A stretch of DNA of 39,720 nucleotides from an uncultured Clostridia bacterium. Its GTDB lineage: Bacteria > Bacillota > Clostridia > Oscillospirales > Ruminococcaceae. The position numbers and the translations under genes are program-made. The stretch covers positions 1 through 39,720 of the forward strand of contig CAMVGH010000012.1 in assembly GCA_947166945.1 (NCBI GenBank), read 5' to 3'. Below are positions 7,597-37,106 of this stretch, in pieces. The notes beneath the pieces were generated by a model that searched no databases, was not told the DNA's origin, and was given only the letters and a program-made list of their open reading frames with translations. Each line of letters begins with the position of its first letter. Positions within the stretch are counted from its first letter, which is position 1.

Positions 7597-10383
7597 TCAT
7601 TTTATCTTTTTAACAGCATGATTCTCGAGTTCTATAAAGTCTGTCTTAAGGACTTCCTCATTCCATATCCGGATAACATTCTGATCAAAAACATATTGAA
7701 TTTTTCTCATAATATTCGAGGTATCATACATATTTTGATCCATAACAATTTTGGGTATTGTTGGCAACATTGGCGTGCCTTTTTGTTCCTTATTAGATAA
7801 AATATACTTTTCTAACAATGGCAGTTTTCCTTTGTTTTTTGCTTCAAGGTATTTTTTAGATAAATCGGGTTCTTTGTCAGCTAAAAGGCTTTCAATATCA
7901 TCATATTTTAAACGCGCCAGCATATCCAAAGCCCAGTAAATTGTAATATCACCAAATCTTGGATCAATATGAATATGACTATAAAATGATATATCTATAA
8001 TACAACCGTGTACGCGCCCTTCTCCCCCGAATGATTTTACCTCTTTGGCGATGGCTTGTAATGTATTATAATATGGTGAAATAGCAGTTTTTACTTTTCG
8101 TCCGTATTCTTCCATATTATTGTAATAATAATCTATATCAGTGTTATCCATTTTTCGTCTACCTCCCCCGTTTAATAGACATAAGCTTCTTGTGCTTTTC
8201 AAAAGGAATAAATATGTGCCGCTACGCTTTAACGCATATATTTGTCCGGGACAATTACATCCTTCGCATTCAATGCCCATTCCTCTATTAAAATCAAGAT
8301 AATCCTGTAATGTGATTTTATGTATACCATCTTCGTAATACTTAAATGGGTCATACCAACCGGATAATGTGAATCCTTTTAATGACCATTTTTGAGGCTT
8401 ATATCCAATTTGATTATCGAACAATACGGTCGGCCCATTCTTCTCAATGATTGCATTATTATTGTGAGTATGACCATTTATATAGATCCAATTGGGATTA
8501 TATTGTTCATGGCTCCAATCACTCATAGGGTTATGAGTTAAAACGATAACCTTAAGATGTCCGGCACATCTAATCAACTTATCGTGTATTCTTCTAAATT
8601 TCTCTGTTTCCTCCCTATCTTCCTGTATAGTTTTTATTGTCGACCTGTAAATTCCTTTATCAGCATTATATACAGGGTTATATCCAGAAAATCCTGTTCC
8701 TCCTAAAATAATAAGTGATGATTTTTCACACAATTCTTTTAAATTCTCACATAAAGAAGTGTTTATCTGCTGTTCAGTAATAATACGAGAGCCACATCCC
8801 TTGTAAGTTATAAGAATGGAATTATGAAGATAAGTGATATGATTATTTCTGCCTGAAATAATATAGTCTTGCACAATTTCTTCAACATTCCTGCCATTAA
8901 AGCTAATATCGCTAACTGGATTACCGTCCCACAACTCATGATTTCCTAAAATTGAAATAATACGTCCTTTCCATTTTTCTGAAAGCCGCTGATAAAATAA
9001 TTCTGACAGTTCAATGCTATAAGAGACATCTCCCCCAATGAGAAGCATATTTGAAGTATCAACATTTTCACACATTTCATCTAATTTTAAGTCAATTGCA
9101 GATGAAATTTCAGAATAAGTTGAACTTATATTCATAGCAGATAACTGGTGTTCTAAGTGTAAATCACTTATATAATAAATCACCTTTTCATTTAAGTAAT
9201 TTGTTTCTTCCAATAAACGAATTTCATTTTTGCTCTTATTAACGGAAACAGCTTCATTGTCTGAAATGTCAGGAATTACACTTTCTACAGGAGTGATAGA
9301 TAACTTAGCTTCACTAGCTAAACCATCAGAAAATCCACTTTCCAATGGCGTGATAGATAATGAAGATTGATTAGACAAATAAAGAGACCTATGACTGGTC
9401 ATTCTATCATTTACCGCTGTATTGTATGCTTCGATTTTTTTCTCAATATAATTTCTACTTTCTTCTGACAGTTTATTTAATATACCTTCGGTAAAACCTC
9501 TATGATTTAATATTTCGTATGGAATTTTAACGAGAATACCCATATCACTAAATAATATATTAGGAATATTATTAAGAATACTTACTCCTTCTTCTAATAA
9601 AACAGACCTTTTATAAGAATAATCCGATGAAAACAAATCGGAATTAAACTTGTTGATTGCTGTTATACACATTTGACGAGTAATAAGCCTTTGTGGTATT
9701 ACTTTTATTACCTTGTAATTTTCTTCAAATGCGTCTTTATACATTTCTTCTGTAACATATTCCTCAGGTATCCATTCAATTGCCGACTTGTTATTTTTAT
9801 ACGCCATCATACATATATCTTTTGTTCGTTTATGGGCAGGAACAAATTCTAAAGTGAGCGGCTCACCGTTAATAGCAATATTTATTAATTCTTTTGTGAT
9901 AAATCTTTTGGGAATATCCCTCAAACTTTCCGGATTGTTTGTGACTGACATTTTGACCAAGTCTTTTGTAATAAGAACCTTAGGTACATAGCCGATTGGA
10001 TATTTATAATGTTTTCCGGTACAGTTATTGATCGCTTTTACTGCAAGATCAGCCGTAATATAGTCTGTATCTATATATGCTATAAGCGATCCGTCAACGT
10101 CTAAAGCAAATTCACATAATCTCTTTGTCTTATACTTGTCCGGTATATAGTAAAAAGAAGAGGGTTCTTGTAGTATTGCCTGTTCACAAAGATATTCGTC
10201 AATCAGTTTTCTTGACACAGATTTTATAGAATTCCCATCATGTTGAACAGCATATAATGCAAGTTCATAAGTCTGTTCTGCTTTAGGAATCCTTCTAAAG
10301 CAGAACTCCTTAGGGTTATTCATAAAAACTTCATATGGCGTTAATTCTCTTAATCCTAATTCATCTTCAAGTTTGTTCGACAT
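7597..10383 (-). CDS. Metallophosphoesterase with N-terminal DUF4116-like repeats
   Basis: 928 residues in two parts. Residues ~10-245 hold about six or more imperfect repeats of ~35-45 residues around the phrase IPxxxxTxELxxxAI (for example VPKVLITKDLVKMSV, IPKRFITKELINIAI, IPQRLITRQMCITAI), like DUF4116 repeats. After a linker with two short copies of LSITPxES, residues ~400-680 form a calcineurin-type metallophosphoesterase: DLHLEH, GGDVS, GNHELWD, LTHNP and GHTHNN are the five metal-site motifs. The C-terminal ~240 residues match nothing I recognise. No signal peptide or membrane segment is seen. AGAGGTGAT precedes the ATG and a promoter lies at 10405-10433. Substrate unknown; phosphodiester or nucleotide hydrolysis is the family activity. 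Confidence 0.75.
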   Translation of the reverse strand: MSNKLEDELGLRELTPYEVFMNNPKEFCFRRIPKAEQTYELALYAVQHDGNSIKSVSRKLIDEYLCEQAILQEPSSFYYIPDKYKTKRLCEFALDVDGSLIAYIDTDYITADLAVKAINNCTGKHYKYPIGYVPKVLITKDLVKMSVTNNPESLRDIPKRFITKELINIAINGEPLTLEFVPAHKRTKDICMMAYKNNKSAIEWIPEEYVTEEMYKDAFEENYKVIKVIPQRLITRQMCITAINKFNSDLFSSDYSYKRSVLLEEGVSILNNIPNILFSDMGILVKIPYEILNHRGFTEGILNKLSEESRNYIEKKIEAYNTAVNDRMTSHRSLYLSNQSSLSITPLESGFSDGLASEAKLSITPVESVIPDISDNEAVSVNKSKNEIRLLEETNYLNEKVIYYISDLHLEHQLSAMNISSTYSEISSAIDLKLDEMCENVDTSNMLLIGGDVSYSIELSELFYQRLSEKWKGRIISILGNHELWDGNPVSDISFNGRNVEEIVQDYIISGRNNHITYLHNSILITYKGCGSRIITEQQINTSLCENLKELCEKSSLIILGGTGFSGYNPVYNADKGIYRSTIKTIQEDREETEKFRRIHDKLIRCAGHLKVIVLTHNPMSDWSHEQYNPNWIYINGHTHNNNAIIEKNGPTVLFDNQIGYKPQKWSLKGFTLSGWYDPFKYYEDGIHKITLQDYLDFNRGMGIECEGCNCPGQIYALKRSGTYLFLLKSTRSLCLLNGGGRRKMDNTDIDYYYNNMEEYGRKVKTAISPYYNTLQAIAKEVKSFGGEGRVHGCIIDISFYSHIHIDPRFGDITIYWALDMLARLKYDDIESLLADKEPDLSKKYLEAKNKGKLPLLEKYILSNKEQKGTPMLPTIPKIVMDQNMYDTSNIMRKIQYVFDQNVIRIWNEEVLKTDFIELENHAVKKIK

Positions 10384-10404
10384 TGTAAATCACCTCTTTC
10401 TGCC

Positions 10405-10433
10405 ATTATAACACAATTATGTAATATTTACAA
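10405..10433 (-). promoter_or_regulatory. Promoter of the metallophosphoesterase gene
   Basis: Minus strand: TTGTAA (10428-10433), 17 nt, TATAAT (10405-10410). The 5' leader is about 20 nt and contains the Shine-Dalgarno AGAGGTGAT. Confidence 0.65.
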
Positions 10434-10440
10434 TAGAAAT

Positions 10441-10836
10441 CTGACAAAAATGATTTGTTGAAATGGTCAGTCACGGAGAGTAGCAAGCATATGATTTGAG
10501 TACTCAAACCAACTTTTTCGGCATTTTTCTTTCAGGAAATCTTGAAATTATTTTCAGAAAAAAAAAACACTGACGGCAGGAAGTGCGCACTTATATACCA
10601 CAGATGTGGTATCGTGCGGTTTCTGCGGAAACAAAAATGATCTCGCACTGCTGCTCGATGAAAAATCTCGCTCACTGATTTGAATAAAAAGCTGAAAAAG
10701 CAGAGAATCTTGAACAAGCTGATGAAAAATTTTCCCAAAAATCACTTTTCTACTAGCTTTATATGAATATATATTTTCTGACTTTAAAACCATGATTTTC
10801 CAATTAGTTGTCATATTTTTAGAAACAGTTGGCAAA
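10441..10836. other. Intergenic stretch with two tandem hairpins
   Basis: No convincing protein gene. At 10586-10618 an extended hairpin forms (outer CGCAC/GTGCG, inner ATACCAC/GTGGTAT, loop AGAT), directly followed by GTTTC-TGCG-GAAAC (10619-10632). ORFs here (minus 10532-10738 and 10554-10937) lack Shine-Dalgarno sites and look like chance. The rest shows nothing I can name. Confidence 0.4.
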
Positions 10837-10841
10837 ATATC

Positions 10842-11108
10842 TTGAATGTTGGCAAGTTTGTTGCTATAATTGAAGCAAGGAGATAAGGCTATGCAGCCAG
10901 TAATGATTAAATAATTATTACAAAGGGATTGAACCATAGAGTTTCAAATCACAGAGCGTTGAGTTTAGATCGAACACAACTGCTATCCAACAAGACTGTA
11001 TCGGAAAAGCCCAAAAGCTCGCACCAGAGATACTATAGCGTCCCGTAAATCAGCTATTTTCTCGTTCTTACATCAAAAATCCCTATGTGGCATCCACATA
11101 GGGATTTT
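10842..11108 (+). ncRNA. Possible small transcript with its own promoter and terminator
   Basis: Plus strand TTGAAT (10842-10847), 17 nt and TATAAT (10865-10870) form a good promoter. A strong hairpin with a 15-bp stem (11076-11090 with 11094-11108) closes the unit about 230 nt later. The only translatable item is a 7-codon ORF, MQPVMIK, preceded by AAGGAG. No longer protein follows. It could be a small RNA, a leader peptide left from a lost gene, or a decayed locus. Confidence 0.35.
11076..11108. terminator. Bidirectional terminator
   Basis: AAAATCCCTATGTGG (11076-11090) pairs perfectly with CCACATAGGGATTTT (11094-11108) around a 3-nt loop, and there are T-runs on both strands. It ends the kinase gene from the right and the possible small transcript from the left. 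Confidence 0.8.
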
Positions 11109-11176
11109 CTGTCTATGAACTTATATATGGCTTTACGCATATCGCTAACATTTCCGTAAATAGTAAATATTTCTTT

Positions 11177-11845
11177 TCACTTTATGATCGAGCGAAACTT
11201 TCTTTTACATATGCTGATAAGATCTGCCTTTACATCTTCTATGCTCTGATATCTTTCCCAGGGCAATTCAGCTGTACAGTTCTTTATTACCTTATACAGA
11301 CCGGGATCGTATCTGCGATTAAGTGTATCAACAGTCTGTCCGAAGGAATACACATCTGCCCTGCCGTCCACATAAATAACATTATACTGCTCCGGCGGAG
11401 AGTAGGAATCTGTACCGTTGAACCATACTTCAACAGGAAACCCGTTCGGAATACTTCTTACAGATTCAAAGTCCTTTATTATTACCTGACCATTACTGTC
11501 GATCACAAAGTCGCTCGGCTTGATATCAAGATGTATAATTCCTATTCTGTGAAGCTCTGATATTGCCTCGCATATCTTTACAAGCATAGGATAGAGTTCC
11601 TGTTCCGGCAGAACTGCGCCATTCAGAAAAGTCCCTTCAACATACTCCGACAGCAGATAGTTTCTGGAATAATCCAGTATATGAGCCGTGTGCGGAGGCT
11701 TGAACTTTGAGATCGTTTTAAAAGCCTCTGTGTCAAAATAGCCTTCTTTCAGATAGTACTTCTTACCTTTATCGTCAGTGAGAAGTGACCCTCTTCTGAT
11801 GATGTCATCGTACAATAATTTCCGGCTTACAAAATTGATATCCAT
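11177..11845 (-). CDS. Small Ser/Thr protein-kinase-like protein
   Basis: 222 residues, cytoplasmic, kinase domain only. HLDIKPSD (105-112) stands for the HRDLKPxN catalytic loop (Arg changed to Leu, Asn to Asp), KDFES (124-128) replaces DFG, and YSPPEQY marks the APE region. The N-lobe is short: the Gly-rich loop is not evident and YYLKEG may carry the ATP-site Lys. The changed HRD Arg and DFG Gly suggest weak or altered activity, possibly a partner of the larger kinase upstream. The ATG has AAGGAG 9 nt upstream, and that site can be hidden in a hairpin (see 11848-11909). Confidence 0.8.
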   Translation of the reverse strand: MDINFVSRKLLYDDIIRRGSLLTDDKGKKYYLKEGYFDTEAFKTISKFKPPHTAHILDYSRNYLLSEYVEGTFLNGAVLPEQELYPMLVKICEAISELHRIGIIHLDIKPSDFVIDSNGQVIIKDFESVRSIPNGFPVEVWFNGTDSYSPPEQYNVIYVDGRADVYSFGQTVDTLNRRYDPGLYKVIKNCTAELPWERYQSIEDVKADLISICKRKFRSIIK

Positions 11846-11847
11846 TT

Positions 11848-11909
11848 AAGTAATCTCCTTGATTGATTTATTATCTCTAAGCGTCTTTAAGCGTTATCAG
11901 AGATTACTT
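11848..11909 (-). promoter_or_regulatory. Hairpin that can hide the kinase Shine-Dalgarno
   Basis: In the 5' leader of the small kinase gene, AAGTAATCTC is followed downstream by GAGATTACTT (plus coordinates 11900-11909 and 11848-11857). The two form a perfect 10-bp stem that takes up most of the AAGGAG ribosome-binding site. A translation switch is possible. No known riboswitch class is recognised. Confidence 0.4.
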
Positions 11910-11929
11910 TTATGTTATATCATAAATAG

Positions 11930-11965
11930 AAAATCACAAGAATTTATAATAATTCTTGTGATTTT
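11930..11965. terminator. Bidirectional terminator after the large kinase gene
   Basis: AAAATCACAAGAATT (11930-11944) pairs with AATTCTTGTGATTTT (11951-11965) around a 6-nt loop. It separates the two kinase genes, so the second one probably has its own promoter. Confidence 0.75.
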
Positions 11966-11979
11966 TCAAAATGTTGGTA

Positions 11980-13347
11980 TTAGCCGGCTTCTATCTCAGA
12001 GAAACTCAGCTGGCACTGCGGAAACATACTGTTCTTTTCAGTATCTTCAACATACACCATGGATATATATCCGTTGTAAAGAGCCGGATCCGTGCATTTC
12101 CACTGCACTGTTCTTCCAAGTCTTGTGAAATTATCCTCAATCAGAGTACTTTCACCAAGCCATGCTGTTATGCTTTCAGCAAGGTCATAAGCTGTATCCT
12201 TATCGAGTTTTTCCCATATTACTTTCTTCACATGGTTCTTGTCATCAAAACTTGATATTCCTTCAGGAAGCTCAGGGAATCCTCCAGGAACAAAAGGCAG
12301 ATCAATCACTACGTTTTCTTCTGTAATTAATGATTCAGAAACAGTTTTCGGTTGAAAAGTAGTGGTTGTAGTTTCAGAAGCTGTTATAGTTTCCGATGTT
12401 GAAAGAAGCGTTGTAGTATCAGCAGTTTCAGGCTGTTCAATATTGCTGATCTGAGCAGTTGACGATTCCGAATAAAGTTCATCATTGGTTGTCCCATCAT
12501 CTGAAGTTGTTGTAGTTGCGATTATTTCAGAGATCTGAGTCGCAGGCACTTTGCTTATATCTGTTGATGCCGATGTTGTGATTTCAATGATATTAATAAC
12601 AGGCTCTGAAACAGAAATACTCTTGGTATTATTCAGAGGTATCAGAGTACCAACAAATACACCAGCACCAAAAACTGCTGCACAACAAACAATTATCGCC
12701 GTCCTATGCTTTCTGAATTTTAAGGCAATTTCTACCTGATCAACGCTTTTGTAACGCTTATCGGGATCGAAACGCATACACTTTTCTGCTACCTTGCGGA
12801 ACTTAGAACTTTCATATTTATCCCTCAGCAGCAGCTTTATTGTTACTCCCAAAGCATAGATGTCACTGCGTTCATCGGTCTGCGTGAATCCATACTGCTC
12901 AGGAGGGGCAAATCCGTCTGTGCCTATGAATGAAGTGTCTTTGTCAGCATCAGGCTTCTTTATTCTTGCAGCATCAAAATCAATTATTCTTATATGCCCG
13001 TCATTGGAAAGCATAATATTCGACGGCTTAATGTCACGATGTATTACTCCGGCGCTGTGCAATGCCGCAAGCCCTTTGCATATCTCGCATATCACTTCAA
13101 AGAGCTGTTCCTGCGGTATAGATATCTCTGATAACGGCTTTCCGGAGATGTATTCCATTATTACCTGCGATTCGGAATATGATTCAATCTTTGCTATGTA
13201 AGGAGAATCGATTTTTGATATTGCAGAAAGAGCCTCGGCGCTGAATTTCCCCGTTTTGCGGACATACTCATTTCCGTTTTCATCTGTTACAAGAGCTATC
13301 TCACCATGCTCCGATCTGTGCAGAACTTTTTCATCTGTGAATTCCAT
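11980..13347 (-). CDS. Membrane-bound Ser/Thr protein kinase with extracellular domain
   Basis: 455 residues. Residues ~5-210 are a kinase domain with VIHRDIKPSN (101-110), IIDFDAAR (121-128, DFD in place of DFG), FAPPEQYG (146-152) and SDIYALG (161-167). A single membrane segment follows at ~217-237. Residues ~240-345 are a Ser/Thr-rich, probably extracellular linker. The last ~100 residues form a small outer domain that I do not recognise. The layout is that of PknB/PrkC-type receptor kinases but without PASTA repeats. AGGGGGGGAG precedes the ATG. The gene is divergent from an XRE regulator and shares a control region with it (13372-13449). Confidence 0.88.
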   Translation of the reverse strand: MEFTDEKVLHRSEHGEIALVTDENGNEYVRKTGKFSAEALSAISKIDSPYIAKIESYSESQVIMEYISGKPLSEISIPQEQLFEVICEICKGLAALHSAGVIHRDIKPSNIMLSNDGHIRIIDFDAARIKKPDADKDTSFIGTDGFAPPEQYGFTQTDERSDIYALGVTIKLLLRDKYESSKFRKVAEKCMRFDPDKRYKSVDQVEIALKFRKHRTAIIVCCAAVFGAGVFVGTLIPLNNTKSISVSEPVINIIEITTSASTDISKVPATQISEIIATTTTSDDGTTNDELYSESSTAQISNIEQPETADTTTLLSTSETITASETTTTTFQPKTVSESLITEENVVIDLPFVPGGFPELPEGISSFDDKNHVKKVIWEKLDKDTAYDLAESITAWLGESTLIEDNFTRLGRTVQWKCTDPALYNGYISMVYVEDTEKNSMFPQCQLSFSEIEAG

Positions 13348-13371
13348 TGTCTCCCCCCCTGATACATTTGC

Positions 13372-13449
13372 ATTATATCATTTTCTGCAATAAAAGTCAA
13401 CTTTGTAAGCTGTCAGCTAATTGACATTGACTGTGATTCCATGTATAAT
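13372..13449. promoter_or_regulatory. Divergent promoters with shared palindrome
   Basis: Kinase promoter (minus): TTGACT (13395-13400), 17 nt, TATAAT (13372-13377). XRE promoter (plus): TTGACA (13421-13426), 17 nt, TATAAT (13444-13449). Between the two -35 boxes lies GTAAGCT-GTC-AGCTAA (13405-13420), an imperfect palindrome suited to a dimeric regulator. A better copy is at 16493-16509. Confidence 0.7.
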
Positions 13450-13465
13450 AAAACAGGGTGATATT

Positions 13466-13894
13466 ATGGCTGAAAAAACTACAGACGAACTTATGAACGA
13501 GATCAGGCAGACAAACGAGATCGAAACTTTTCTCAAAAAAAACAGTGCAGAGTTCCATGAGAAACCTCTGCACAAGTATCTGAATGATATTATTGACAGC
13601 TCCGGTGAATCCAAAGCTGATATTATTGCACGCAGCAGCCTGAATCGTATCTATGCTTATCAGATACTTTCCGGCAAGCGTCTTCCCTCCCGTGATAAGC
13701 TGTTGGCATTTGCGTTCGGTCTCAAACTCGGGCTCGATGATACTGACAGACTGCTGAAATATGCCGGATATTCTCCTTTGTATGCAAGGAACAAGCGTGA
13801 TGCTATTATTATTTCTGCTATCGACAAGAAAGGGAGTATCTTTACTGTTAATGAGATGCTATATGATAATAGGTTTAAGATATTGACTACATAA
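13466..13894 (+). CDS. XRE-family helix-turn-helix regulator
   Basis: 142 residues starting MAEKTTDELMNEIRQ. An earlier TTG start at 13421 would lie within the promoter's -35 box, so the ATG at 13466, with GGGTGAT upstream, is preferred. Residues ~45-105 hold an HTH (ESKADIIARSSLNRIYAYQI, then a PSRDKLLAFAFGL helix) of the Cro/CI type. The C-terminal part, NKRDAIIISAID, is commonly seen in small clostridial XRE proteins. Being divergent from the kinase gene with a shared palindrome, it may regulate both. The gene ends at a strong terminator (13898-13921). Confidence 0.8.
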   Translation: MAEKTTDELMNEIRQTNEIETFLKKNSAEFHEKPLHKYLNDIIDSSGESKADIIARSSLNRIYAYQILSGKRLPSRDKLLAFAFGLKLGLDDTDRLLKYAGYSPLYARNKRDAIIISAIDKKGSIFTVNEMLYDNRFKILTT

Positions 13895-13897
13895 AAC

Positions 13898-13926
13898 TGC
13901 CCGCAGTTTTATCTGCGGGCAACTTT
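13898..13926. terminator. Bidirectional terminator between XRE gene and RiPP cluster
   Basis: TGCCCGCAG (13898-13906) pairs with CTGCGGGCA (13913-13921). On the plus strand ACTTTTT follows; on the minus strand GTTTTA follows. It ends both the XRE gene and the RiPP-like operon. Confidence 0.8.
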
Positions 13927-13929
13927 TTC

Positions 13930-14106
13930 CTAATATGGATCTTCAGACCCGTCATTAGGTCCGCATTCACCCTCCGGACTACAATCCAGTCCATAATCCG
14001 GATGGCATTCACCCTCTGGGCTGCAACAATCCGACCAATCATCCGGATCACATTGCATAGTGGTGTTGCCTTCGAAGCAATCACTCAAACATTCAAATTC
14101 AAACAT
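13930..14106 (-). CDS. Candidate RiPP precursor peptide 2 (Cys/Asp/Pro-rich)
   Basis: 58 residues starting MFEFECLSDCFEG. The core half is dense in Cys, Asp, Glu, Pro and Gly with two copies of CSPEGEC and a CDPDDW motif, ending GPNDGSEDPY. It shares its start (MxEFxCL) and the order C-x-P-x-D-W, CSPE, C-x-PND with the peptide at 15398-15559. The start ATG at 14106 has GAGGT 5 nt upstream and lies 7 nt behind the maturase stop. An upstream ATG in the same frame would overlap the maturase and has no Shine-Dalgarno. No signal peptide. The likely role is a substrate for the radical SAM enzyme. I do not recognise the class. Confidence 0.7.
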   Translation of the reverse strand: MFEFECLSDCFEGNTTMQCDPDDWSDCCSPEGECHPDYGLDCSPEGECGPNDGSEDPY

Positions 14107-14113
14107 TTTTACC

Positions 14114-15340
14114 TCATTGCTTGTCATCATTAAGTATTTGAGATATAAAGCTGTTTTCATCTAGCCATTCTCCAATATATGGATCGTACGTGCAGTACCA
14201 CGGCTTGGCATAAACATCATCTGAAAGAGAGTCTGGTCTGCAATCAAAACAACAATATCTAAACTCGCAATCCTTACATCCTTCAACATGATCTTTACTA
14301 ATATTAAAAATTTTCGGTTTTACAACTTCTTCCAAATGTTTATTGTGTAAAGAACCATGCTTTATTCGTCTTTCCATAACGCATGGATATACATCAAGGT
14401 TATATGATATATACAGTCTGTGTGAAAAACAGTTGTGCCCTGATATTGTTTTATTAAACAGTTTCATATTGATAGGACGTTCAAAAGATTTCCTTGTAAT
14501 CAGCTTTCGCTTAAGCAGATTCGGATTTAACAGTTTAAGATTTGCTCTTCCTATCATACGGACAATATCCTTTTGAGGATTAATGGTAAATAAATCTGTG
14601 TTTTTGTTTCCTGTATCTACTCCGTCCATATATACGGTAGCAGTTCGGTATTTTATTTCATTTATCTTTAATAATTCTATACTATGTACTGTTTTTGAAA
14701 AAGAAGTCGGAATCCCGGTGACTTTATCATGCATTTCGGGGATATATGAGTAAATTGACAAGGCAATCTTAACATCATACTGCTTAAAGGTATCAATCCA
14801 ATTTTGGTTAATTAACGTTCCATTTGTAAATACTTCAATTCCTTGAAACAGCTTTGATGCATAATCTATCATACTTTTCAGCTTATCTCCGAGTACTAAT
14901 GGTTCTCCGCCTATAAACTGAATGTTTTTAACTCCATAATCATACAGCTCATCTGCAACGTATTTAAAATCTTCAACCGACATTTCACCTGTGCACTTGC
15001 TTGAAGCTTCATCGTAGCAATGTTTGCAAAACAGATTGCATCGTGTTGTAACCTCTATCCATACCATTGTAATGTCAGAATTATTTTTTTCAATATTTAT
15101 TTTGCCATCATTAAATTCTTTTTCCGACGTTTCTGTAATAATGCCGCAACTCATCAAGAAAGACAATGCGGTTTTCTCTGTTTCATTTAATTGTAATTGG
15201 CTTGAGTCTTTTCCTATAACATAGGATAAAAATTCTTCTTCAAGTCTTTGGTAATGGTATAACTTATTTGAGTTAAAATCATAAATACATGAATTCACTG
15301 CACCACTGCACATGAAAACATTTTTATTAAATGAAATCAT
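14114..15340 (-). CDS. Radical SAM/SPASM peptide maturase
   Basis: 408 residues from the ATG at 15340, which has AGGAG 9 nt upstream. The first ATG at 15373 lies inside a terminator stem and is rejected. The N-terminal ~90 residues look like a peptide-recognition (RRE-like or PqqD-like) part. The radical SAM motif CNLFCKHC gives C101, C105 and C108 for the [4Fe-4S] cluster, followed by QFIGGEPL. The C-terminal Cys-rich part (~355-383, GCKDCEF, CCFDCRPDS, YCTYDP) is a SPASM/twitch-like domain for extra clusters. Enzymes of this build install thioether, cyclophane or epimer modifications on ribosomal peptides. Two Cys-rich small peptides flank the gene, which supports that job. No transporter or protease lies nearby. 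Confidence 0.85.
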   Translation of the reverse strand: MISFNKNVFMCSGAVNSCIYDFNSNKLYHYQRLEEEFLSYVIGKDSSQLQLNETEKTALSFLMSCGIITETSEKEFNDGKINIEKNNSDITMVWIEVTTRCNLFCKHCYDEASSKCTGEMSVEDFKYVADELYDYGVKNIQFIGGEPLVLGDKLKSMIDYASKLFQGIEVFTNGTLINQNWIDTFKQYDVKIALSIYSYIPEMHDKVTGIPTSFSKTVHSIELLKINEIKYRTATVYMDGVDTGNKNTDLFTINPQKDIVRMIGRANLKLLNPNLLKRKLITRKSFERPINMKLFNKTISGHNCFSHRLYISYNLDVYPCVMERRIKHGSLHNKHLEEVVKPKIFNISKDHVEGCKDCEFRYCCFDCRPDSLSDDVYAKPWYCTYDPYIGEWLDENSFISQILNDDKQ

Positions 15341-15360
15341 TGTATTTGTCTCCTGTTTTG

Positions 15361-15395
15361 AAAAAATCTCCATGATTTTGTCATGGAGATTTTTT
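15361..15395. terminator. Strong hairpin between precursor 1 and the maturase
   Basis: AAAAAATCTCCATGA (15361-15375) pairs with TCATGGAGATTTTTT (15381-15395) around a 5-nt loop. On the minus strand the hairpin is followed by TTTTTTC. It lies in the middle of the operon, so partial read-through would give more precursor than enzyme, as is common in RiPP operons. Confidence 0.8.
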
Positions 15396-15397
15396 GA

Positions 15398-15559
15398 TTA
15401 GTCATTAGGATCACAGCTTGGCATGCAAGGCGACATCTCAGATTCTGGAGAGCAGCCATCTCTATCTCCCACATCGGGACCACATACCCAATCTCCAGGA
15501 CCGCAAATGTCATTAGACATAGATACAGACTCAAGTGTCAAGCATTTGAATTCGAGCAT
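15398..15559 (-). CDS. Candidate RiPP precursor peptide 1 (Cys/Asp/Pro-rich)
   Basis: 53 residues starting MLEFKCLTLESVSMSNDI, then ICGPGDWVCGPD, GCSPESEMSPC and a tail SCDPND. It has seven Cys, and its C-P-D-W and CSPE elements line up with those of the peptide at 13930. AAAGGAGGT with a good distance to the ATG gives one of the strongest ribosome-binding sites in the window, as expected for a precursor. It is the first gene of the minus-strand cluster (precursor, terminator, radical SAM enzyme, second precursor). The modified residues are unknown. Confidence 0.7.
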   Translation of the reverse strand: MLEFKCLTLESVSMSNDICGPGDWVCGPDVGDRDGCSPESEMSPCMPSCDPND

Positions 15560-15727
15560 AAGTATACCTCCTTTCGAATTACTATATTATTATATTTTAT
15601 GATTCCACCACTTAGCTTATCAAAAAACCGGGTGTAACGTCATGCTTCCTCAGGTCAAGAGCTTAACCCTTGTTCCGTCTGCAAAGACAGCGCGTAAGCG
15701 CCCTGGTAAGTTATTGAGGTAATCACA
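15560..15727. other. Intergenic region upstream of the RiPP-like cluster
   Basis: It holds the AAAGGAGGT site of precursor 1 and an AT-rich patch with TATAAT on the minus strand, though no -35 box at the usual distance. Further right is a GC-richer piece (about 15620-15715) with the short hairpin GCGC-GTAA-GCGC. The latter resembles a foreign scrap rather than promoter DNA. I cannot name it. Confidence 0.3.
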
Positions 15728-16012
15728 TTATATATTATATATTTTGGGGTGAACAAAAGGTGAAATTGTGTCTTTTTTCTTATATCTTTTTACATCAAAA
15801 TCACCCTCAATCTCCTCACACTGAAATTCTCCTTCTTCTACTAATTCATGAAAGACTCTCCCTATGTTTGTTAAATCATTTTCTTTAGCCATATCATCTC
15901 CAAGCAAATCATGGAGAGTAAAAACAGAGTTTGCGGGTAATTCTGTAATTTTTTCTTTAAGACGGTCAATAACTGCTTTGCCATTTTTTAGTGTTAAGTC
16001 GCTCATCAACAT
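15728..16012 (-). CDS. Small hypothetical protein, winged-helix-like
   Basis: 94 residues, or 92 if it starts at the second Met (MSDLTL). Acidic and soluble, with the pattern RLKEKITELPANSVFTLHDLLG then IGRVFHELVEEGEF. This resembles small DUF1413-like/winged-helix proteins in which a helix pair is followed by a beta wing. The gene lies divergently from the XRE regulator at 16138. It may be an accessory or regulatory protein. Function not recognised. Confidence 0.55.
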   Translation of the reverse strand: MLMSDLTLKNGKAVIDRLKEKITELPANSVFTLHDLLGDDMAKENDLTNIGRVFHELVEEGEFQCEEIEGDFDVKRYKKKDTISPFVHPKIYNI

Positions 16013-16137
16013 ATGCTACTCGATCCTTTTATTTTTTATAATTATATCACAACCTATGTGTTTTGTCAATAACAACATTTTTATTTTTTATTTTACACCC
16101 GATTTTTGTTATAATAAACAAAAAGGAGGCGTTATTT

Positions 16138-16461
16138 ATGGTAAAAAACCTTAAAGCTCTGCGAGAAGAACACGGTCTGTCACAGCAGAAGCTTGCCGAG
16201 CAGCTTGGGCTCACACAGCAAGCGATCTACAAATACGAACGAACTTCTGTCGAACCGGACATAGATACCCTTATCGCAATGGCGGAGCTGCTGCACACCA
16301 CAGTTGATCACCTTATTGGTAACGATACAGACAGCGATACCGGTATGAATCTGACTTCGGCAGAAGCTGACCATATAAGGCACATACGAAGACAGCCGCC
16401 TGATGTAAGGGAGAACATCTTCCGGCTTGCCGAAAGCATGGACAGCTACCATAATTCCTGA
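16138..16461 (+). CDS. XRE-family helix-turn-helix regulator (SinR/HipB-like)
   Basis: 107 residues from the ATG at 16138, which is preceded by AAGGAGG at 7-8 nt. Residues ~1-62 form a classic HTH_3 domain (LKALREEHGLSQQKLAEQLG, TQQAIYKYERTSVEPDIDTL, then LLHTTVDHLIG). The C-terminal tail of ~45 residues ends in a helix (PPDVRENIFRLAESM), probably for dimerisation. A TATAAT at 16110-16115 may be its -10 box. It is divergent from the small gene at 15728. Confidence 0.88.
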   Translation: MVKNLKALREEHGLSQQKLAEQLGLTQQAIYKYERTSVEPDIDTLIAMAELLHTTVDHLIGNDTDSDTGMNLTSAEADHIRHIRRQPPDVRENIFRLAESMDSYHNS

Positions 16462-16492
16462 ATATATTATAGCTTATTTTTTTGGTGTTGCG

Positions 16493-16509
16493 GTAAGCTG
16501 TCAGCTTAC
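16493..16509. promoter_or_regulatory. Palindrome, possible operator
   Basis: GTAAGCT-GTC-AGCTTAC is a perfect 7+7 inverted repeat. Its first 14 bases recur at 13405-13418 between the divergent kinase and XRE promoters. It may be bound by one of the XRE regulators or form part of the XRE gene's 3' end. Confidence 0.3.
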
Positions 16510-16644
16510 AAACTAAACGCCCGGACAAGAATTCATACGATTCCTGCCCGGGTACTTTAATATCGTAATTATATCAAAAATGAACTTTTATCCGACAAAT
16601 TTCGCTTAAAATAATTTTATGAGACATTTATCAGAATATTCCTA

Positions 16645-16673
16645 TTGACATTTTCTTATAAATGTCGTATAAT
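16645..16673 (+). promoter_or_regulatory. Promoter of the AlbA_2 gene with internal inverted repeat
   Basis: TTGACA (16645-16650), 17 nt, TATAAT (16668-16673). The spacer carries GACATTT-TCTTAT-AAATGTC (16647-16666), which overlaps the -35 box and looks like a repressor site. GAGGTGAT follows before the ATG. Confidence 0.75.
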
Positions 16674-16692
16674 TTGATTGTGAGGTGATATT

Positions 16693-18144
16693 ATGCTTGA
16701 GAGTGAAGTAATCGAACTTGTTTCTCAGTTACAAAAGAATAAAAGCGAAAGCAACTATGTCGAAGTAAAATCTGCAAAAGCAGGCTGCCCGAAGATATTT
16801 GATACACTTTCATCGTTCTCCAATCAACATGGCGGCGGCAAGATATTATTCGGCATAGATGAAAGCAGACGTTATGAAATATGTGGGGTCTATGATGCTG
16901 CCGATCTACAAAAGAAGATAATGGAGCAGAGCATACAAATGGAGCCACCCGTCAGACCTCTGTGTACAGTTGTTGATATCGAAGGTAAAACTGTCGTATG
17001 CGCAGAAATACAAGAGATAGACAACTATCAGAAGCCGTGCTTCTATAAAGGCGCCGGCAGACTTAAAGGCTCCTATGTCAGGGTCGGTGATGCAGACCGC
17101 CAGATGTCGGAATACGAGGTTTACAGCTACGAAGCCTTCAAAAAGAAGATACAGGACGAGCTGCGTATTACAGAACGAGCTGCCGCCGATGACCTTAAGA
17201 CCGTAGCATTGGAGAAGTACCTGCTTGATGTGAAGATGAAGAAGAAAAACCTTTCGGCTCTTTCTGATGAAAAGATTTGCAGACTGCAAGGCTTTACAAT
17301 TGACGATAGACCTACTCTTGCAGGTATAATGCTTTTCTCCGACTATCCTCAAGCCTTCTATCCCCAGCTTTGTATTACGGCTGTATCTGTCCCGGGAACG
17401 GAGATGAGTATGGTCGGTAGCGTCGGTGAGCGTTTCATCGATAACAAGCGCATTGATGGTACTATAACACAAATGCTCGATGAAGCTATCCTTTTTGTAC
17501 GCAAGAATACCCGTCAGAAAACTATAATAGACCCCGTGACCGGAAAGCGGAACGACAGGACAGACTATCCGACAGAAGCTGTCAGAGAACTGATACTTAA
17601 TGCTCTGATACACCGTGATTACAGTATTCACACAGATTCGGCACCCATAACAATTCGGATATACAGCGACAGGTTGGAAATAGAGAACCCCGGCGGTCTG
17701 TATGGAAGAATGACGCTTGACCAGCTCGGTAAGGTGTCTGCTGATACCCGCAACCCATTCATAGCTAACGCTCTGGAGCTTATGGGGGTGACCGAGAACA
17801 GATACAGCGGTATTCCCACAGTTCTCGCGGCAATGGAGGAATATCATCTTCCCGCACCGATATTTGAGAGCGAGCGAGGAATATTCAGAGCAACACTTTA
17901 TAACAGCGATGCCGAGCCTCGCAGTGTTGTTTATCTCGATGATAACGAGAAGCTGATACTGGATTATTGCACGACACCTCGCAGCCGTAATGAACTGGAG
18001 GAACTTTTTAACGGCAAGATGACAATAGCTTATGTTATGAGCAAATATATTCACAAGCTCATAGAAAGCGGGCAGCTTAAGCTTACAATACCGGAAAAGC
18101 CAAAGAGCAAGCTGCAAAAGTATGTCACAGCCGATCTCAGATGA
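16693..18144 (+). CDS. AlbA_2/Schlafen-type ATP-binding regulator
   Basis: 483 residues. Residues ~15-130 are an AlbA_2 (AAA_4) domain with NYVEVKSAKAGCPKIFDTLSSF and GGGKILFGIDE. Residues ~290-400 carry the HATPase_c_4 part typical of RecG-related transcriptional regulators (TEAVRELILNALIHRDY, IEIENPGGLYG-like IENPGGL, NPFIANALELMG). A small winged-helix-like C-terminus follows (~415-470). Such proteins occur in defence and mobile regions, often as single genes. Its own promoter has an inverted repeat, which suggests autoregulation. Confidence 0.85.
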   Translation: MLESEVIELVSQLQKNKSESNYVEVKSAKAGCPKIFDTLSSFSNQHGGGKILFGIDESRRYEICGVYDAADLQKKIMEQSIQMEPPVRPLCTVVDIEGKTVVCAEIQEIDNYQKPCFYKGAGRLKGSYVRVGDADRQMSEYEVYSYEAFKKKIQDELRITERAAADDLKTVALEKYLLDVKMKKKNLSALSDEKICRLQGFTIDDRPTLAGIMLFSDYPQAFYPQLCITAVSVPGTEMSMVGSVGERFIDNKRIDGTITQMLDEAILFVRKNTRQKTIIDPVTGKRNDRTDYPTEAVRELILNALIHRDYSIHTDSAPITIRIYSDRLEIENPGGLYGRMTLDQLGKVSADTRNPFIANALELMGVTENRYSGIPTVLAAMEEYHLPAPIFESERGIFRATLYNSDAEPRSVVYLDDNEKLILDYCTTPRSRNELEELFNGKMTIAYVMSKYIHKLIESGQLKLTIPEKPKSKLQKYVTADLR

Positions 18145-18167
18145 CATAGAAACCCTGTAAAATAATC

Positions 18168-18196
18168 TTGACTGTTGACTGAATTTATGCTACAAT
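18168..18196 (+). promoter_or_regulatory. Orphan plus-strand promoter near the recombinase end
   Basis: TTGACT (18168-18173), 17 nt, TACAAT (18191-18196). It points into the 3' end of the minus-strand recombinase gene and has no gene of its own downstream. It may once have served a gene now separated by insertion of the element. Confidence 0.5.
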
Positions 18197-18300
18197 ATAG
18201 TTGCTTTTCCGTTCCGATGTTCCATTGTTCCGGGTGTGTAATATGTTTTCCAAAACTTGTTTTTGGGCAACCGGTGTTTTTTCAGGCTGAAAGCAATGAA

Positions 18301-18339
18301 TTATAAAAAAATAACAAACCCGCTGTTTATGCGGGTTTG
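18301..18339 (-). terminator. Terminator embedded in the last codons of the recombinase
   Basis: CAAACCCGC (18315-18323) pairs with GCGGGTTTG (18331-18339). On the minus strand the hairpin is followed by TTATTTTTTTATAA. The ORF's stop codon (TAA) comes only at the end of that T-run, so the hairpin and T-run encode the terminal residues. Confidence 0.75.
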
Positions 18340-20007
18340 AAGGGTCGTGGGTAACACTGGGCGCGGCTCACCTCGACCAATTTTTCTCACAACTTTTTCG
18401 GAGTTGTGAGAATTTTTATTTTCATCGGCTGTTTCAGCTGTCCCGGCAGCCGCAGTCATGATACGCTCGTAGATAAAGCGTGGAAGTGTATTTACATACA
18501 CTTCCACATACTGCTCATACACCACCACCTTTTCGAGGTAGAGATTGATGAGCTGCCGCTTCTCCTCGGGGCTGCCGCTCAGGAACAGCTCCCTCGCTTT
18601 TCTGTAAGCCGCGGTCAGCTCTTCCTCGCTTATCAGCTCACCGTTCAGCCGTGACTTCACATCATTCAGCTCGTTTTCGATACGGGCTTTTTCTTTTTCC
18701 AGAGCTTCAAGCTCGGTGAGGAGCGCATCGCTTCCGGTCTTGCTGATGACCTTTACTATGTTCCCGATCTTGGTCGTGAGCTGTCTGATATTGGCTTCCA
18801 TACCCGCGATCTCGGTGTTCGATGCCGAGAGCCTTTCGGAGTAGCTATCCCTGTATTTCTTCACAAGCTCCGGTATCCGCTCGTCCGCAAGCACCACACG
18901 AAGTATCTCCTTTATCACGAAGTCCTCCAGCTCGTCGCGCCTGATATCTCTGTTCTTACAGGTGTCGTAGGTCTTATTGTGCTTGTTGCAGCAGCTGTAT
19001 GAGATGTACTCGTACAGCTTATCCTTGCCCGCGTGCTTGGTGCCGCCTGTGTACCTGTGACCGCAGAGCCCGCAGACTATCTTGCCTGTCAGAAGGTATG
19101 TGCGCTTGTGTTTCTTTATCGGATTGAGGTCGCTGCGGCGTTTCATTATCTTAGTCACCGACTCGAACAGCTCGTCCGAAACGATCCTCGGTATGCCGTC
19201 CTCGATACGGATTATCTCGTCGGGATATTTGTTTGCGTGGCTGTTGACATGACCGTAAGCGTCCTTTGACGGGCGGCGGTTGAAGATATACACACCCTTG
19301 TATTTCTCGTTCGTGAGGATACTGTTTAGCGAATTTTTCCCGAAGTCATTACCCGCATGGGTCTTATACCCCATGCGGTTCAGCTCCTTTATCACCTGCT
19401 CGTATGACATTCCCTCGGCTATGCTTTCGAAGATGAAGCGGACTGCGGGAGCCTCGTCCTCGTTGATCTCGTACTTTTTCGTTTCCTTGTTTATTTTAAA
19501 TCCGAAGGGAGCGATGCCTCCGTTGGTCTGACATTTCAGAGCGTTCTCGGTCATACCCTTGCGGACTTCTCTTGCAAGATTTCTCGAATAATACTCTGCC
19601 ATGCCTTCGAGAACCGACTCCATCATGATGCTCTCGGGGCTGTCGTCAAGGTTTTCAAGGACGCTCACAAGCACTACTCCGTTCTTCTCCAGCTTGCGGC
19701 GGTAGTGGGAGCTGTCGAACCTGTTCCGTGCAAATCTATCCAGCTTGTGGACGATCACAAGATTGAATTTGCCCTCTCCCGAGTCCTCGATCATTCGCAG
19801 GAACTCGGGTCTGTCATCGGTAGTAGCCGACCTCGCACGGTCTATGTATTCCCCGACAACTACAATCTCGTTCTGTTCACAGTATTTCTGTATCGCCCTG
19901 AGCTGAGCGTCGATGCTCTCGTCGCGCTGGTTGTCCGAGGAGAAGCGGGCATAGACTGCCGCTTTCGGAATTATACCTCTTGCCTTCATTTTATCAACTG
20001 CCTGCAT
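18301..20007 (-). CDS. Large serine recombinase
   Basis: 568 residues. The resolvase domain (~14-160) has the catalytic Ser in VYARFSSDNQ (S23) and HKLDRFARNR. The Recombinase domain (~170-290) follows, then a zinc ribbon (CGLCG near 330, later CC and CKNRD) and a coiled coil at ~395-470. This is the TnpX/TndX type that integrates and excises clostridial elements. The start at 20007 has AAGGGG upstream and overlaps the preceding small ORF by 14 nt. The last ~25 residues read through a terminator hairpin, so the true stop may have been lost (see 18301-18339). Confidence 0.92.
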   Translation of the reverse strand: MQAVDKMKARGIIPKAAVYARFSSDNQRDESIDAQLRAIQKYCEQNEIVVVGEYIDRARSATTDDRPEFLRMIEDSGEGKFNLVIVHKLDRFARNRFDSSHYRRKLEKNGVVLVSVLENLDDSPESIMMESVLEGMAEYYSRNLAREVRKGMTENALKCQTNGGIAPFGFKINKETKKYEINEDEAPAVRFIFESIAEGMSYEQVIKELNRMGYKTHAGNDFGKNSLNSILTNEKYKGVYIFNRRPSKDAYGHVNSHANKYPDEIIRIEDGIPRIVSDELFESVTKIMKRRSDLNPIKKHKRTYLLTGKIVCGLCGHRYTGGTKHAGKDKLYEYISYSCCNKHNKTYDTCKNRDIRRDELEDFVIKEILRVVLADERIPELVKKYRDSYSERLSASNTEIAGMEANIRQLTTKIGNIVKVISKTGSDALLTELEALEKEKARIENELNDVKSRLNGELISEEELTAAYRKARELFLSGSPEEKRQLINLYLEKVVVYEQYVEVYVNTLPRFIYERIMTAAAGTAETADENKNSHNSEKVVRKIGRGEPRPVLPTTLQTRINSGFVIFL

Positions 20008-20182
20008 AAACTGCCCCTTTCTTTATTTTGCCGATGTACTTGTCGATGAGCCCCATAAGGAAGCTGTCATCGTATATGTCAACGACCTCGTCGGTCTTTG
20101 ATACTGTATTTTCCGCATTCTCAAACCTGTTGTTCTTCAGGTCATCGCGGGATATTTTTAAGATCATTTTTTTGTATGTCAT
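19994..20182 (-). CDS. Small partner ORF upstream of the recombinase
   Basis: 62 residues, charged, starting MTYKKMILKISRDDLKNN. GGGAGG lies 3 nt before the first ATG; the Met at position 6 is an alternative start. It overlaps the recombinase start by 14 nt, which suggests translational coupling. No domain recognised. Confidence 0.5.
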   Translation of the reverse strand: MTYKKMILKISRDDLKNNRFENAENTVSKTDEVVDIYDDSFLMGLIDKYIGKIKKGAVYAGS

Positions 20183-20683
20183 AGTCCTCCCATATTTCCC
20201 GAAGTTTCACTCTTCAAAGGGTTTGACCCCTGCACTCGCCCTGCCGAACGGCTCAACCGTGCGGTTCGTCGGCTCACTGAACCGATTTTGACTCCCGGAT
20301 TTGCGAAACTCCGTAATTTTGGCGTGTAAATGCCGATTCTGCAACTCCCTCAACGGCGGGCTTTGCCCGACGAAGGTGGACATGTTGGCATCAAAAAGAT
20401 GCCAACTGTTTTTCCTGCATAAAAATCATACTTCGCACGCCGCTACTCCTGTTCTCGAACCGATACTTTCTGCGTATCGGACTTGTTTTGTTCTATGCCC
20501 CAAACGGGCTCGGAAACGGGTCAAATTTCGCTTTTGACTGCCTTGGCGGGTAGTTTCTCCACCCGTCCTGCAAAAGCCCCGCAAATCGGCGGACATTCGG
20601 CTCTGAAAAAATGATCTTTTTTACTTTCCAATATACCACATTTCCGAGCCTCAGTCTATCACGAAACTGACCGAATTTTACCG
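20183..20683. other. Hairpin-rich noncoding stretch of the element
   Basis: No protein gene is supported. Several stems are visible: GCCGA/TCGGC (20243-20247, 20269-20273) around AACCG-TG-CGGTT (20255-20266), CGGGC-TTT-GCCCG (20357-20369), GTTGGCATC-AAAAA-GATGCCAAC followed by TGTTTTT (20384-20412, a plus-strand terminator), and CCGATAC/GTATCGG (20460-20480). The position between recombinase and replication ATPase would suit an origin or transfer site. That is inference only. Confidence 0.4.
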
Positions 20684-21787
20684 TCACATTTTGGTGTTAT
20701 TATCTTCTACCGTCACAGAGGTATTCCCGCTCTGTGAAAGGGTTTGCGGATTTTCACTGACAGAAGGGACGGCAGAAACAGGCATACCCTTTCTTCCGTC
20801 ACTACCGTCACAGTTATCTTCTTTATATGTTATCTCGATATATCTTTTCCCGCCTGTGCGGTACGATTCAACAACCACTCCGTGCTCCGTGAGCAGGTAT
20901 GCGTACTGCATCAGCGAACGGGTTATTCTGTTTGCATAAAGTGTGTCTCCGAACAGCGGAGAGAGCAGCTCTATCAGCTCCGTGGCATTGCCCTTGAAGT
21001 GTTTTCTCTCTTTCATAAATCCAACCGTCTTGTCAACGAAGATGATGCTTTCATCGGGCTCCTTCTCCACAGGCTCGGTGCGTTTCCAGCGGTGAGTGGT
21101 CTTGTCGAACACAAGCTCTGTCTCCTTGTTCTCTATGTCACGTCCGGTGCAGTACAGAACAGCTTCGCGGGTACCTCTGCCTTTCTCATGCAGTATGAAT
21201 TCTCCGTCCGCACAGCCGGTGATCGCTGTCGTTCCCGATACCATATCGAACGGGTCAGCCGATTTCGTCTTGCGGAGATGATGAACTGCCACTATCGCAA
21301 TGTTGTTCCTGTCCGCAAGAGATTTCAGCACCGACAGTTCTTCATAGTCCGAAGCGTAAGCAGTATCCTGGGACGGCTCGCGGACTTTCTGAAGTGTGTC
21401 GATGAAAACAATTCGGGTATCGGGATGCTCCGCTATGAATGTTTCGATTTGTTCTACCAGTCCGCTTTTGATCGTTCCTGCCATGATCGCGAGGTGAAGG
21501 TCGTCGGTAGGATCGTTCGTCAGCGCATAGAGTCTGCGCTGCATTCTCGACAGGCTGTCCTCAAGGCAGAGATACAGCGCTGTGCCTTTCAGCGTATCAA
21601 CGCCCAGCACCTTTTCTCCCTTAGCAATGCTCAGGCAGATGTCCAGTGAGAGCCACGACTTCCCGACCTTCGGTGAGCCTGCAAGAATGTACAGACCCGT
21701 GGTGATGAGCCCTCCGACAAAGAACAGCGGCGGCTTCATCGGTGTGTTCATGAGTTCTTCGCATGTGATCGTGTTTAGTTTTTTCAA
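20684..21787 (-). CDS. RepA-like AAA ATPase (AAA_25)
   Basis: 367 residues from a TTG start codon at 21787: AGGAGG lies 7 nt upstream and there is no ATG at a suitable place. Walker A is AGSPKVGKSW (~37-46), Walker B is RIVFIDTLQ (~125-133), and VAVHHLRK with SGTTAITGCAD completes the RecA-like RepA helicase/primase fold. The C-terminal ~110 residues form a winged-helix-like part and a Ser/Thr/Gln-rich tail. Such ATPases are common replication or mobilisation proteins of clostridial integrative elements. It is downstream of the sigma-like gene, with a hairpin in between. Confidence 0.85.
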   Translation of the reverse strand: MKKLNTITCEELMNTPMKPPLFFVGGLITTGLYILAGSPKVGKSWLSLDICLSIAKGEKVLGVDTLKGTALYLCLEDSLSRMQRRLYALTNDPTDDLHLAIMAGTIKSGLVEQIETFIAEHPDTRIVFIDTLQKVREPSQDTAYASDYEELSVLKSLADRNNIAIVAVHHLRKTKSADPFDMVSGTTAITGCADGEFILHEKGRGTREAVLYCTGRDIENKETELVFDKTTHRWKRTEPVEKEPDESIIFVDKTVGFMKERKHFKGNATELIELLSPLFGDTLYANRITRSLMQYAYLLTEHGVVVESYRTGGKRYIEITYKEDNCDGSDGRKGMPVSAVPSVSENPQTLSQSGNTSVTVEDNNTKM

Positions 21788-21839
21788 ATATGTTCCTCCT
21801 TAAAAATTTCGGATCACGAATGTGATCTCCATTGTTTTT

Positions 21840-22860: not shown

Positions 22861-22887
22861 AGCTGACCTCCCGTGAACATTTTTTTC

Positions 22888-23120: not shown

Positions 23121-23153
23121 GTGCATTTTAGACGAAACGGTTCGTTCCCTCAG

Positions 23154-37104: not shown

Positions 37105-37106
37105 GA

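Follow-up and report, generated by a model that had tools for sequence, protein, structure and literature searches.

A radical SAM/SPASM enzyme gene that lies between two genes for short, cysteine-rich peptides raises the question of whether the peptides are substrates of the enzyme and, if so, what the enzyme makes of them. Such a group is found on the minus strand of the window, i.e., the whole stretch of 39,720 nucleotides from an uncultured Clostridia bacterium analyzed here. A preliminary description had reported two Cys-rich peptides around one radical SAM/SPASM enzyme, and the coordinates and shared motifs were all confirmed. The features, read along the minus strand, are as follows.

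15594..15623, minus strand: promoter-like TTGATA-18-TAAAAT upstream of pepA, from a site scan, at chance level
15398..15559, minus strand: pepA, putative precursor peptide of 53 aa with 6 Cys, five of them in C-x-P
15361..15395, minus strand: perfect 15-bp hairpin in the gap between pepA and the enzyme gene, with an A-tract/T-tract stem, terminator- or attenuator-like
14114..15340, minus strand: radical SAM/SPASM enzyme of 408 aa, start chosen by AGGAGA
13930..14106, minus strand: pepB, putative precursor peptide of 58 aa with 8 Cys, five of them in C-x-P
13893..13926, minus strand: stable hairpin (by folding energy) directly 3' of pepB, end of the unit

The peptide sequences are MLEFKCLTLESVSMSNDICGPGDWVCGPDVGDRDGCSPESEMSPCMPSCDPND (pepA) and MFEFECLSDCFEGNTTMQCDPDDWSDCCSPEGECHPDYGLDCSPEGECGPNDGSEDPY (pepB). 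pepA has a strong Shine-Dalgarno sequence, GAAAGGAGG, while the ribosome site of pepB, GAGG, overlaps the stop codon of the enzyme gene, which is separated by 7 bases from the pepB start. An alternative, in-frame ATG at 15373, upstream of the chosen enzyme start, would give a protein of 419 aa and falls within the hairpin at 15361-15395; the start at 15340 is preferred because it is preceded by AGGAGA and because the starts of relatives (e.g., L045-L047) align there. The hairpin between pepA and the enzyme gene has a folding energy of -18 kcal/mol (z -6.9; equally stable shuffles, 0/200) and the one behind pepB -20 kcal/mol (z -5.4). A consensus terminator scan called the pepB hairpin (13898-13921) on the plus strand only and did not call the other. 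Promoter-like sites in the region are not above chance (15 found vs. 11.6 expected, sd 3.4), and no RNA family reached its gathering score within the window. The layout would be compatible with a precursor produced in excess over the enzyme.

Short ORFs are common (the window contains 254 with a length of 35-200 aa), and it could be argued that pepA and pepB are chance ORFs adjoining an unrelated enzyme. The two peptides share an MxEFxCL start, C-x-P-x-D-W, CSPE, and C-x-P-N-D; the unit common to these motifs, C-x-P, contains 10 of the 14 Cys of the pair, and the remaining 4/14 lie outside it. When the residues were shuffled, the observed number of C-x-P was matched in 0/10000 cases for pepA and in 1/10000 for pepB. 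The same unit recurs in other genomes: an adjacent short Cys-rich C-x-P peptide is present in 15/15 enzyme relatives with readable flanks (L007, the sequence of which begins inside the enzyme gene, was not counted). The RiPP-like pairing that had been proposed from the window was thus upheld once co-occurrence was checked.

These fifteen loci differ in the number and size of their peptides. Two peptides (L008a and L008b) lie beside the enzyme of L008, and one intact peptide, counted among the fifteen, beside the broken enzyme gene of L009. L026 has one peptide (7/7 Cys as C-x-P), L031 has two (9/9 and 7/7), and L027 has one of 161 aa (28/29), to which the peptide of L028, partly masked by N, is similar. 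The eight loci of the genus g108 (L034-L041) carry one peptide each, checked by start and core; in L041 the contig stops within the enzyme gene, and the peptide is visible. Finally, the peptide of L053 has 33 aa and two of its three Cys as C-x-P. Start codons within longer frames were picked by hand for L008a, L008b, the g108 peptides, and pepB.

The C-x-P rule was quantified in three ways. First, in a set of nine peptides, which contains one g108 peptide and leaves out L053, 47/53 Cys are in C-x-P, against a mean of 7.5 and a maximum of 17 in 10000 shuffles. Second, in a chosen set of eleven, which contains two of the eight g108 peptides (L043 and L045) and omits L028 for its masked stretch and L027 from the totals, 52/63 Cys are in C-x-P and 11/63 outside it, with Pro making up 12.3% of residues overall. 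Third, a filter set after the peptides had been seen (ORFs of 35-200 aa with at least 3 C-x-P and at least half of their Cys in C-x-P) was passed by 16/1602 ORFs in 14 loci totaling 232 kb (the window, L008, L009, and L042-L052). All sixteen lie beside the enzyme, in 13 of the 14 loci. L043 fails because the reading frame continues upstream, its peptide having been seen separately; L053, with two C-x-P, was outside the scan and would fail the filter. No ORF passes in 22 control loci, namely the 15 Bacteroidota loci L010-L024, the three weaker relatives L029, L030, and L032, and four other radical SAM matches of the source genome itself (L002-L005).

The first C-x-P starts at residue 17-20 in 10/11 peptides, the exception being L008a (residue 24), which suggests a short leader of approximately 18 residues; in the L027 peptide, outside the eleven, it starts at residue 48. 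In addition, the window pair, L053, L008a, and the g108 peptides have a common start, M-x-E-[FLM]-[EK]-[CL]-[LM]-[TS], and that of L053 (MFEFECLT) is almost identical to that of pepB (MFEFECLS). The L031 and L027 peptides are without this shared start. The initial impression that the peptides have no clear leader/core split is therefore contradicted by the position of the first unit and by the shared start. The eight g108 peptides begin with M-[FLP]-E-[LM]-E-[CL]-L-T and have the core CVPDCPCQPDQRE[NS]EC[WF]PYF. Their dN/dS is 0.06-0.36 in 25/28 pairs and undefined in three, values which are rough since many dS exceed 1 and which indicate purifying selection. Such a near-fixed core would suit a conserved signal or tool rather than an arms-race toxin. 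At the level of the family, the pairing, shuffling, and selection tests refute chance ORFs, an explanation to which we attach negligible probability.

The enzyme system is rare and patchy, and it is common in one genus, g108. The source genome contains one copy of the enzyme, the other four matches having E-values of 1e-12 or weaker. With this genome included, matches were found in 3/396 genomes of the family, 1/394 of the order, 6/391 of the class, 3/388 of the phylum, and 1/71 of the genus; there was no match in the other genomes sampled from the order, nor in the 70 other genomes of the genus. Around other genomes, with the central genome included, the counts were 8/30 in the genus of G337, 2/11 in the family of G778, 1/22 in the family of G806, and 1/20 in the class of G1240; they were 0/16 in the family of G1048 and 1/255 in the family of G779. 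In these searches the E limits varied from 1e-20 to 1e-40, and the larger groups were samples in which scoring was limited to a few top candidates from each genome, so that misses are possible. The spread covers one class, in several of its families, and at least one genome from another class in the phylum. Relatives occur in five other genera (g108, g298, g303, g582, and g873), leaving aside where L008 and L009 belong. Among named genomes, 17 loci were recovered, comprising two close ones and 15 Bacteroidota proteins. L008 belongs to a Ruminococcus flavefaciens MAG (enzyme identity, 50%) and L009 to a Lachnospiraceae MAG (49%), in which the enzyme gene is frameshifted; the 15 Bacteroidota proteins match the window enzyme from residue 301 on.

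In a tree of 22 rows, several controls of which sit on long branches, 12 enzymes with C-x-P peptides form one group (support 90/90). L049 and L050, which carry the L027 and L028 enzymes, fall outside it, so that 2/15 peptide-bearing enzymes do not group, and how this pair branches relative to the grasp-with-spasm proteins and to the twelve is unsettled. The C-x-P label needs two changes on the tree, and one change in 10% of the bootstrap trees; because two are needed, a single origin of the C-x-P pairing is unsupported by the tree. Weaker relatives (L029, E 8e-33; L030, E 3e-31; L032, E 1e-56) have no C-x-P peptide beside the enzyme and served as outgroups. As this division was drawn with the results in view, the border of the family is partly defined by the peptide. 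The pairing across distant relatives points to what may be a little-explored family of enzyme-modified peptides. A phage or viral origin was also considered and rejected: no relative was found in viral_contigs, the nine matching phage records had less than 60% identity over at most 70% of the query, and all 164 plasmid records were below 60% identity, the top-ranked one having 22.9% over 95% of the query.

As regards the enzyme, Pfam Radical_SAM matches it with 66.4 bits (cut-off 29.5) and Pfam SPASM with 19.2 bits, below the cut-off of 21.5. The CX3CX2C motif lies at residues 101-108 (C101, C105, and C108) and is nearly invariant in the 14-row alignment A3, one row of which is a fragment without that part; the seven SPASM Cys (C304, C320, C355, C358, C364, C367, and C383; spacing of the middle part, CX2CX5CX2C) are invariant in it. 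The first ~85 residues precede the radical SAM barrel. A profile of this N-terminal part found no match in the PDB (best E 0.34), and Pfam PqqD matched 1/14 family members, weakly (E 0.16). From the position of these residues and from a known pattern, we suspect that they contain a putative recognition element.

When the family profile was compared with solved chains, SkfB came first (6efn, E 3e-25), followed by 5wgg (E 4.5e-15), which we take to be the ranthipeptide/SCIFF maturase CteB. Directly behind 5wgg come the anaerobic sulfatase maturase 4k37 (E 4.9e-15), then viperins, MoaA, and others; since these are non-thioether enzymes, it is chiefly SkfB and the Cys rule that connect the family with thioether chemistry. 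Radical SAM/SPASM enzymes catalyze many reactions, and it could be that the Cys are not crosslinked at all, the enzyme instead epimerizing residues, forming C-C crosslinks, or oxidizing Cys or Pro, with C-x-P as a recognition code. The non-thioether enzymes among the solved relatives after SkfB would agree with this, as would the best NCBIfam scores of the window enzyme, which are spread across unrelated functions. Nevertheless, it is Cys that is conserved, and SkfB, first among the solved chains, forms thioethers; we regard such alternative chemistry as unlikely.

Short Cys-rich peptides with a radical SAM maturase are also characteristic of the CcpM/CLI_3235 and Clo7bot systems. The window enzyme scores 54.1 bits with the maturase model TIGR04068 (cut-off 500), and its peptides match no model. 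More generally, ten peptides (two from the window and eight from relatives) had no match in NCBIfam (June 2026) at E up to 1, or up to 0.1 for the L027 peptide. For the window enzyme, 67 models matched (E up to 1), the best 25 of which all fell short of their cut-offs; among these 25, the relatively nearest were TIGR04193 (64.1 of 175 bits) and viperin (60.3 of 180). For the sactipeptide maturases, it reaches 90.2 of 850 bits with AlbA and 64.2 of 625 with StsB, and the L008 and L026 enzymes are far below the cut-off of the SkfB model. No SCIFF maturase model is among the best 25 of 67, and the peptides match no SCIFF precursor model. The likeness to the systems of SkfB (sactipeptide) and the presumed CteB (SCIFF) (PMC8326336, PMC11002830), the best and second solved matches of the profile, extends to the peptides, which are likewise short and Cys-rich.

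The C-terminal half shows another affinity. The window enzyme shares the signature CKDCEFR-x-x-C-x-DCR with the SPASM protein of grasp-with-spasm systems, TIGR04193 (named in PMC8939145), and the 15 Bacteroidota loci match in this region; two scanned Bacteroidota proteins are TIGR04193 members, with 289 and 404 bits. In contrast, four translated Bacteroidota proteins, two of them short or truncated, are without CX3CX2C, and 15/15 Bacteroidota loci are without a C-x-P peptide. With TIGR04193 (cut-off 175), the window enzyme and those of L026 (59.5 bits), L008 (65.8), L006 (45.7), and L027 (112.8) are all below the cut-off, and no ATP-grasp ligase was found by Pfam among five neighboring proteins of the window. 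In the literature consulted, no C-x-P radical SAM RiPP was found; PMC9062424 refers to 22 unexplored pathways, some of them only in its supplement, which might include one. The suggestion that the peptides lie outside described families is in line with these comparisons. The further suggestion of a new RiPP class is too strong for a modification that is so far predicted; the evidence extends to a putative new family among the radical SAM RiPPs.

We hypothesize, with slightly more than even confidence, that the locus encodes a minimal RiPP system in which the enzyme forms one thioether ring per C-x-P unit. pepA and pepB would be precursors, each composed of a leader of ~18 residues (M-[FL]-E-F-[KE]-C-L-[TS]...) and a core of C-x-P units. 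The leader would be bound by the enzyme, probably via its first ~85 residues; a 5'-deoxyadenosyl radical, generated at the CX3CX2C cluster, would lead to abstraction of hydrogen from a residue within or adjoining each C-x-P unit, and that residue would then be coupled to the Cys sulfur with the help of the SPASM clusters. The product would be a core in which each successive unit is closed into one small thioether ring. Sactipeptide and ranthipeptide maturases attach Cys at the alpha, beta, or gamma carbon of a variety of acceptors (PMC8326336), and PapB forms Cys-Asp and Cys-Glu thioethers in CX3D/E and accepts Cys-Xn-Asp with n = 0-6 (PMC9413430). By analogy with these enzymes we expect one thioether per C-x-P; the thioether chemistry and the recognition of a leader are likewise inferred. 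Since PapB closes rings over such short distances (n = 0-6; PMC9413430), a ring as tight as C-x-P would be sterically possible.

Which residue would accept the sulfur is a separate matter. The likeness to PapB suggests that the system may be a ranthipeptide proper, with the Cys sulfur joined to an Asp or Glu 3-5 residues downstream and Pro only shaping the turn. The freyrasin pair PapA-PapB likewise combines a radical SAM/SPASM enzyme with a small peptide of repeated Cys units (PMC9413430), and its chemistry, with 0-6 residues tolerated between the partners, could accommodate the window units, 10/10 of which have Asp or Glu at +3 to +5. The code there is C-X3-D/E, whereas here it is C-x-P, and many units of other members are without Asp or Glu. 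Over the eleven peptides, 34/52 C-x-P are followed by Asp or Glu within +3 to +5 (24/42 without the window), vs. ~27/52 expected from composition (51%; hand calculation with a background of 21.4%); in the L027 repeat peptide the count is 0/28, and the last C-x-P ends the protein. Furthermore, the PapB model NF047865 (cut-off 340) is not among the best 25 of the 67 models matching the window enzyme, the lowest of which scores 51.7 bits, and the L026 enzyme has 58.5 bits with it. A PapB-like ranthipeptide is, on balance, improbable. The 0/28 of L027, together with the absence of Trp from several peptides (e.g., that of L053), also led us to reject Asp or Trp as a family-wide acceptor, and the Asp and Trp crosslink sites envisaged in the preliminary description fall with it.

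The peptides of L027 and L028 both terminate with NCAP as their final unit, which leaves no residue after Pro as an acceptor there. Pro is the only near-universal partner of Cys (52/63), so that either Pro or the residue between accepts, or Pro imposes a turn and different residues act as acceptor. For the one-ring-per-unit system, we tentatively suggest, at clearly less than even credence, that the acceptor is the proline at +2 or the residue between, which would produce strings of very small thioether rings, and, as part of the same reading, that the C-x-P code would work for anything between 2 and about 28 units in one peptide. To our knowledge, proline as the acceptor of a radical SAM thioether would be new.

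If the proposed system is correct, it would represent a radical SAM peptide family of compact build, with a leader-length rule and a C-x-P substrate code of unusual simplicity, and one without a name among the NCBIfam models scanned. Its short leader and single enzyme would make it an easily tested system, and a C-x-P ring code, if true, could serve to build tightly constrained peptides.

The surroundings of the enzyme bear on the fate of the product. Among ORFs of at least 90 aa in the 14 loci and positions 8001-24000 of the window, the enzyme is the only family common to most lineages; a shared transporter, protease, or immunity gene was sought among these ORF families and rejected. No protease or peptide exporter tied to the pair was seen, mostly by eye and, for five window neighbors, by Pfam, which implies housekeeping ones or no export. 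Alternatively, pepA, pepB, and their counterparts could be metal-binding or redox peptides, the enzyme acting on something else; their high Cys content, the lack of an evident exporter or protease, and the near-fixed g108 core, more that of a conserved tool than of a diversifying bacteriocin, are consistent with such a role. Against this, a peptide-modifying type of enzyme is paired with them in 15/15 relatives and the leader length is nearly fixed, and we consider a metal or redox function very unlikely.

Other ORF families shared between loci are of a generic or local kind, namely response regulators (L046 and L048) and a family of secreted proteins (L042, L043, L051, and L049), and there is synteny between L049 and L050. 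One Walker-A protein (ABC-type) is encoded near the L050 enzyme, and downstream of the L026 enzyme (L047, 10391-15046) lies a set of lipoprotein and ABC transporter genes that, by eye, has the look of nutrient uptake.

Genes surrounding the CxP-type enzymes, the radical SAM/SPASM partners of short Cys-rich putative precursors with C-x-P units, were located in relatives as follows:

L053, 419–1477, minus strand: second, distinct radical SAM gene
L007, 577–2010, plus strand: second, distinct radical SAM gene
L009 (Lachnospiraceae MAG), 3533–3703: undisrupted CxP peptide
L009, 3700–4985: enzyme gene disrupted by frameshifts
L049, 10568–15589, minus strand: secreted-looking protein, about 1670 aa
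L050, 1566–6602, plus strand: secreted-looking protein, about 1670 aa

In both L053 and L007, the second radical SAM gene lies immediately downstream of the CxP-type enzyme gene. In L009, the CxP peptide is intact despite the frameshifted enzyme gene. In L049 and in L050, the large secreted-looking protein lies immediately upstream of the long CxP repeat peptide.

The 15 Bacteroidota loci (L010–L024) that match the C-terminal part of the window enzyme correspond to grasp-with-spasm-type proteins, as confirmed by TIGR04193 for two of them. The four that were translated retain the SPASM cysteines and lack the CX3CX2C motif; these four look like radical SAM relatives devoid of the radical cluster.

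In the window, the peptide cluster (pepA, enzyme, pepB) has the following neighbours:

1643–2084: CRISPR-like array adjoining Cas9
2720–6835, minus strand: Cas9, 1371 aa
11177–13347, minus strand: tandem kinase-like genes adjoining the peptide cluster
18301–22860: large serine recombinase, then RepA-like ATPase and sigma-factor-like ORF
24203–26650: 815-aa ORF preceding the BREX-type cluster
26670–38443, plus strand: BREX-type defence cluster (consecutive BrxP, BrxC, PglZ, BrxL and DndA/SspA-like cysteine desulfurase)

The larger kinase-like gene matches Pfam Pkinase, and the smaller was judged by eye. The combination of a large serine recombinase (called with Pfam) with the RepA-like and sigma-factor-like ORFs (both judged by eye) suggests an integrated mobile element, and this stretch separates the peptide cluster from the defence cluster. 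The latter resembles BREX type 4; no PADLOC model matched the preceding ORF at E 1e-5. Within the stretch searched, the CRISPR-like array comprises seven copies of a 36-bp repeat, spaced at 66 bp.
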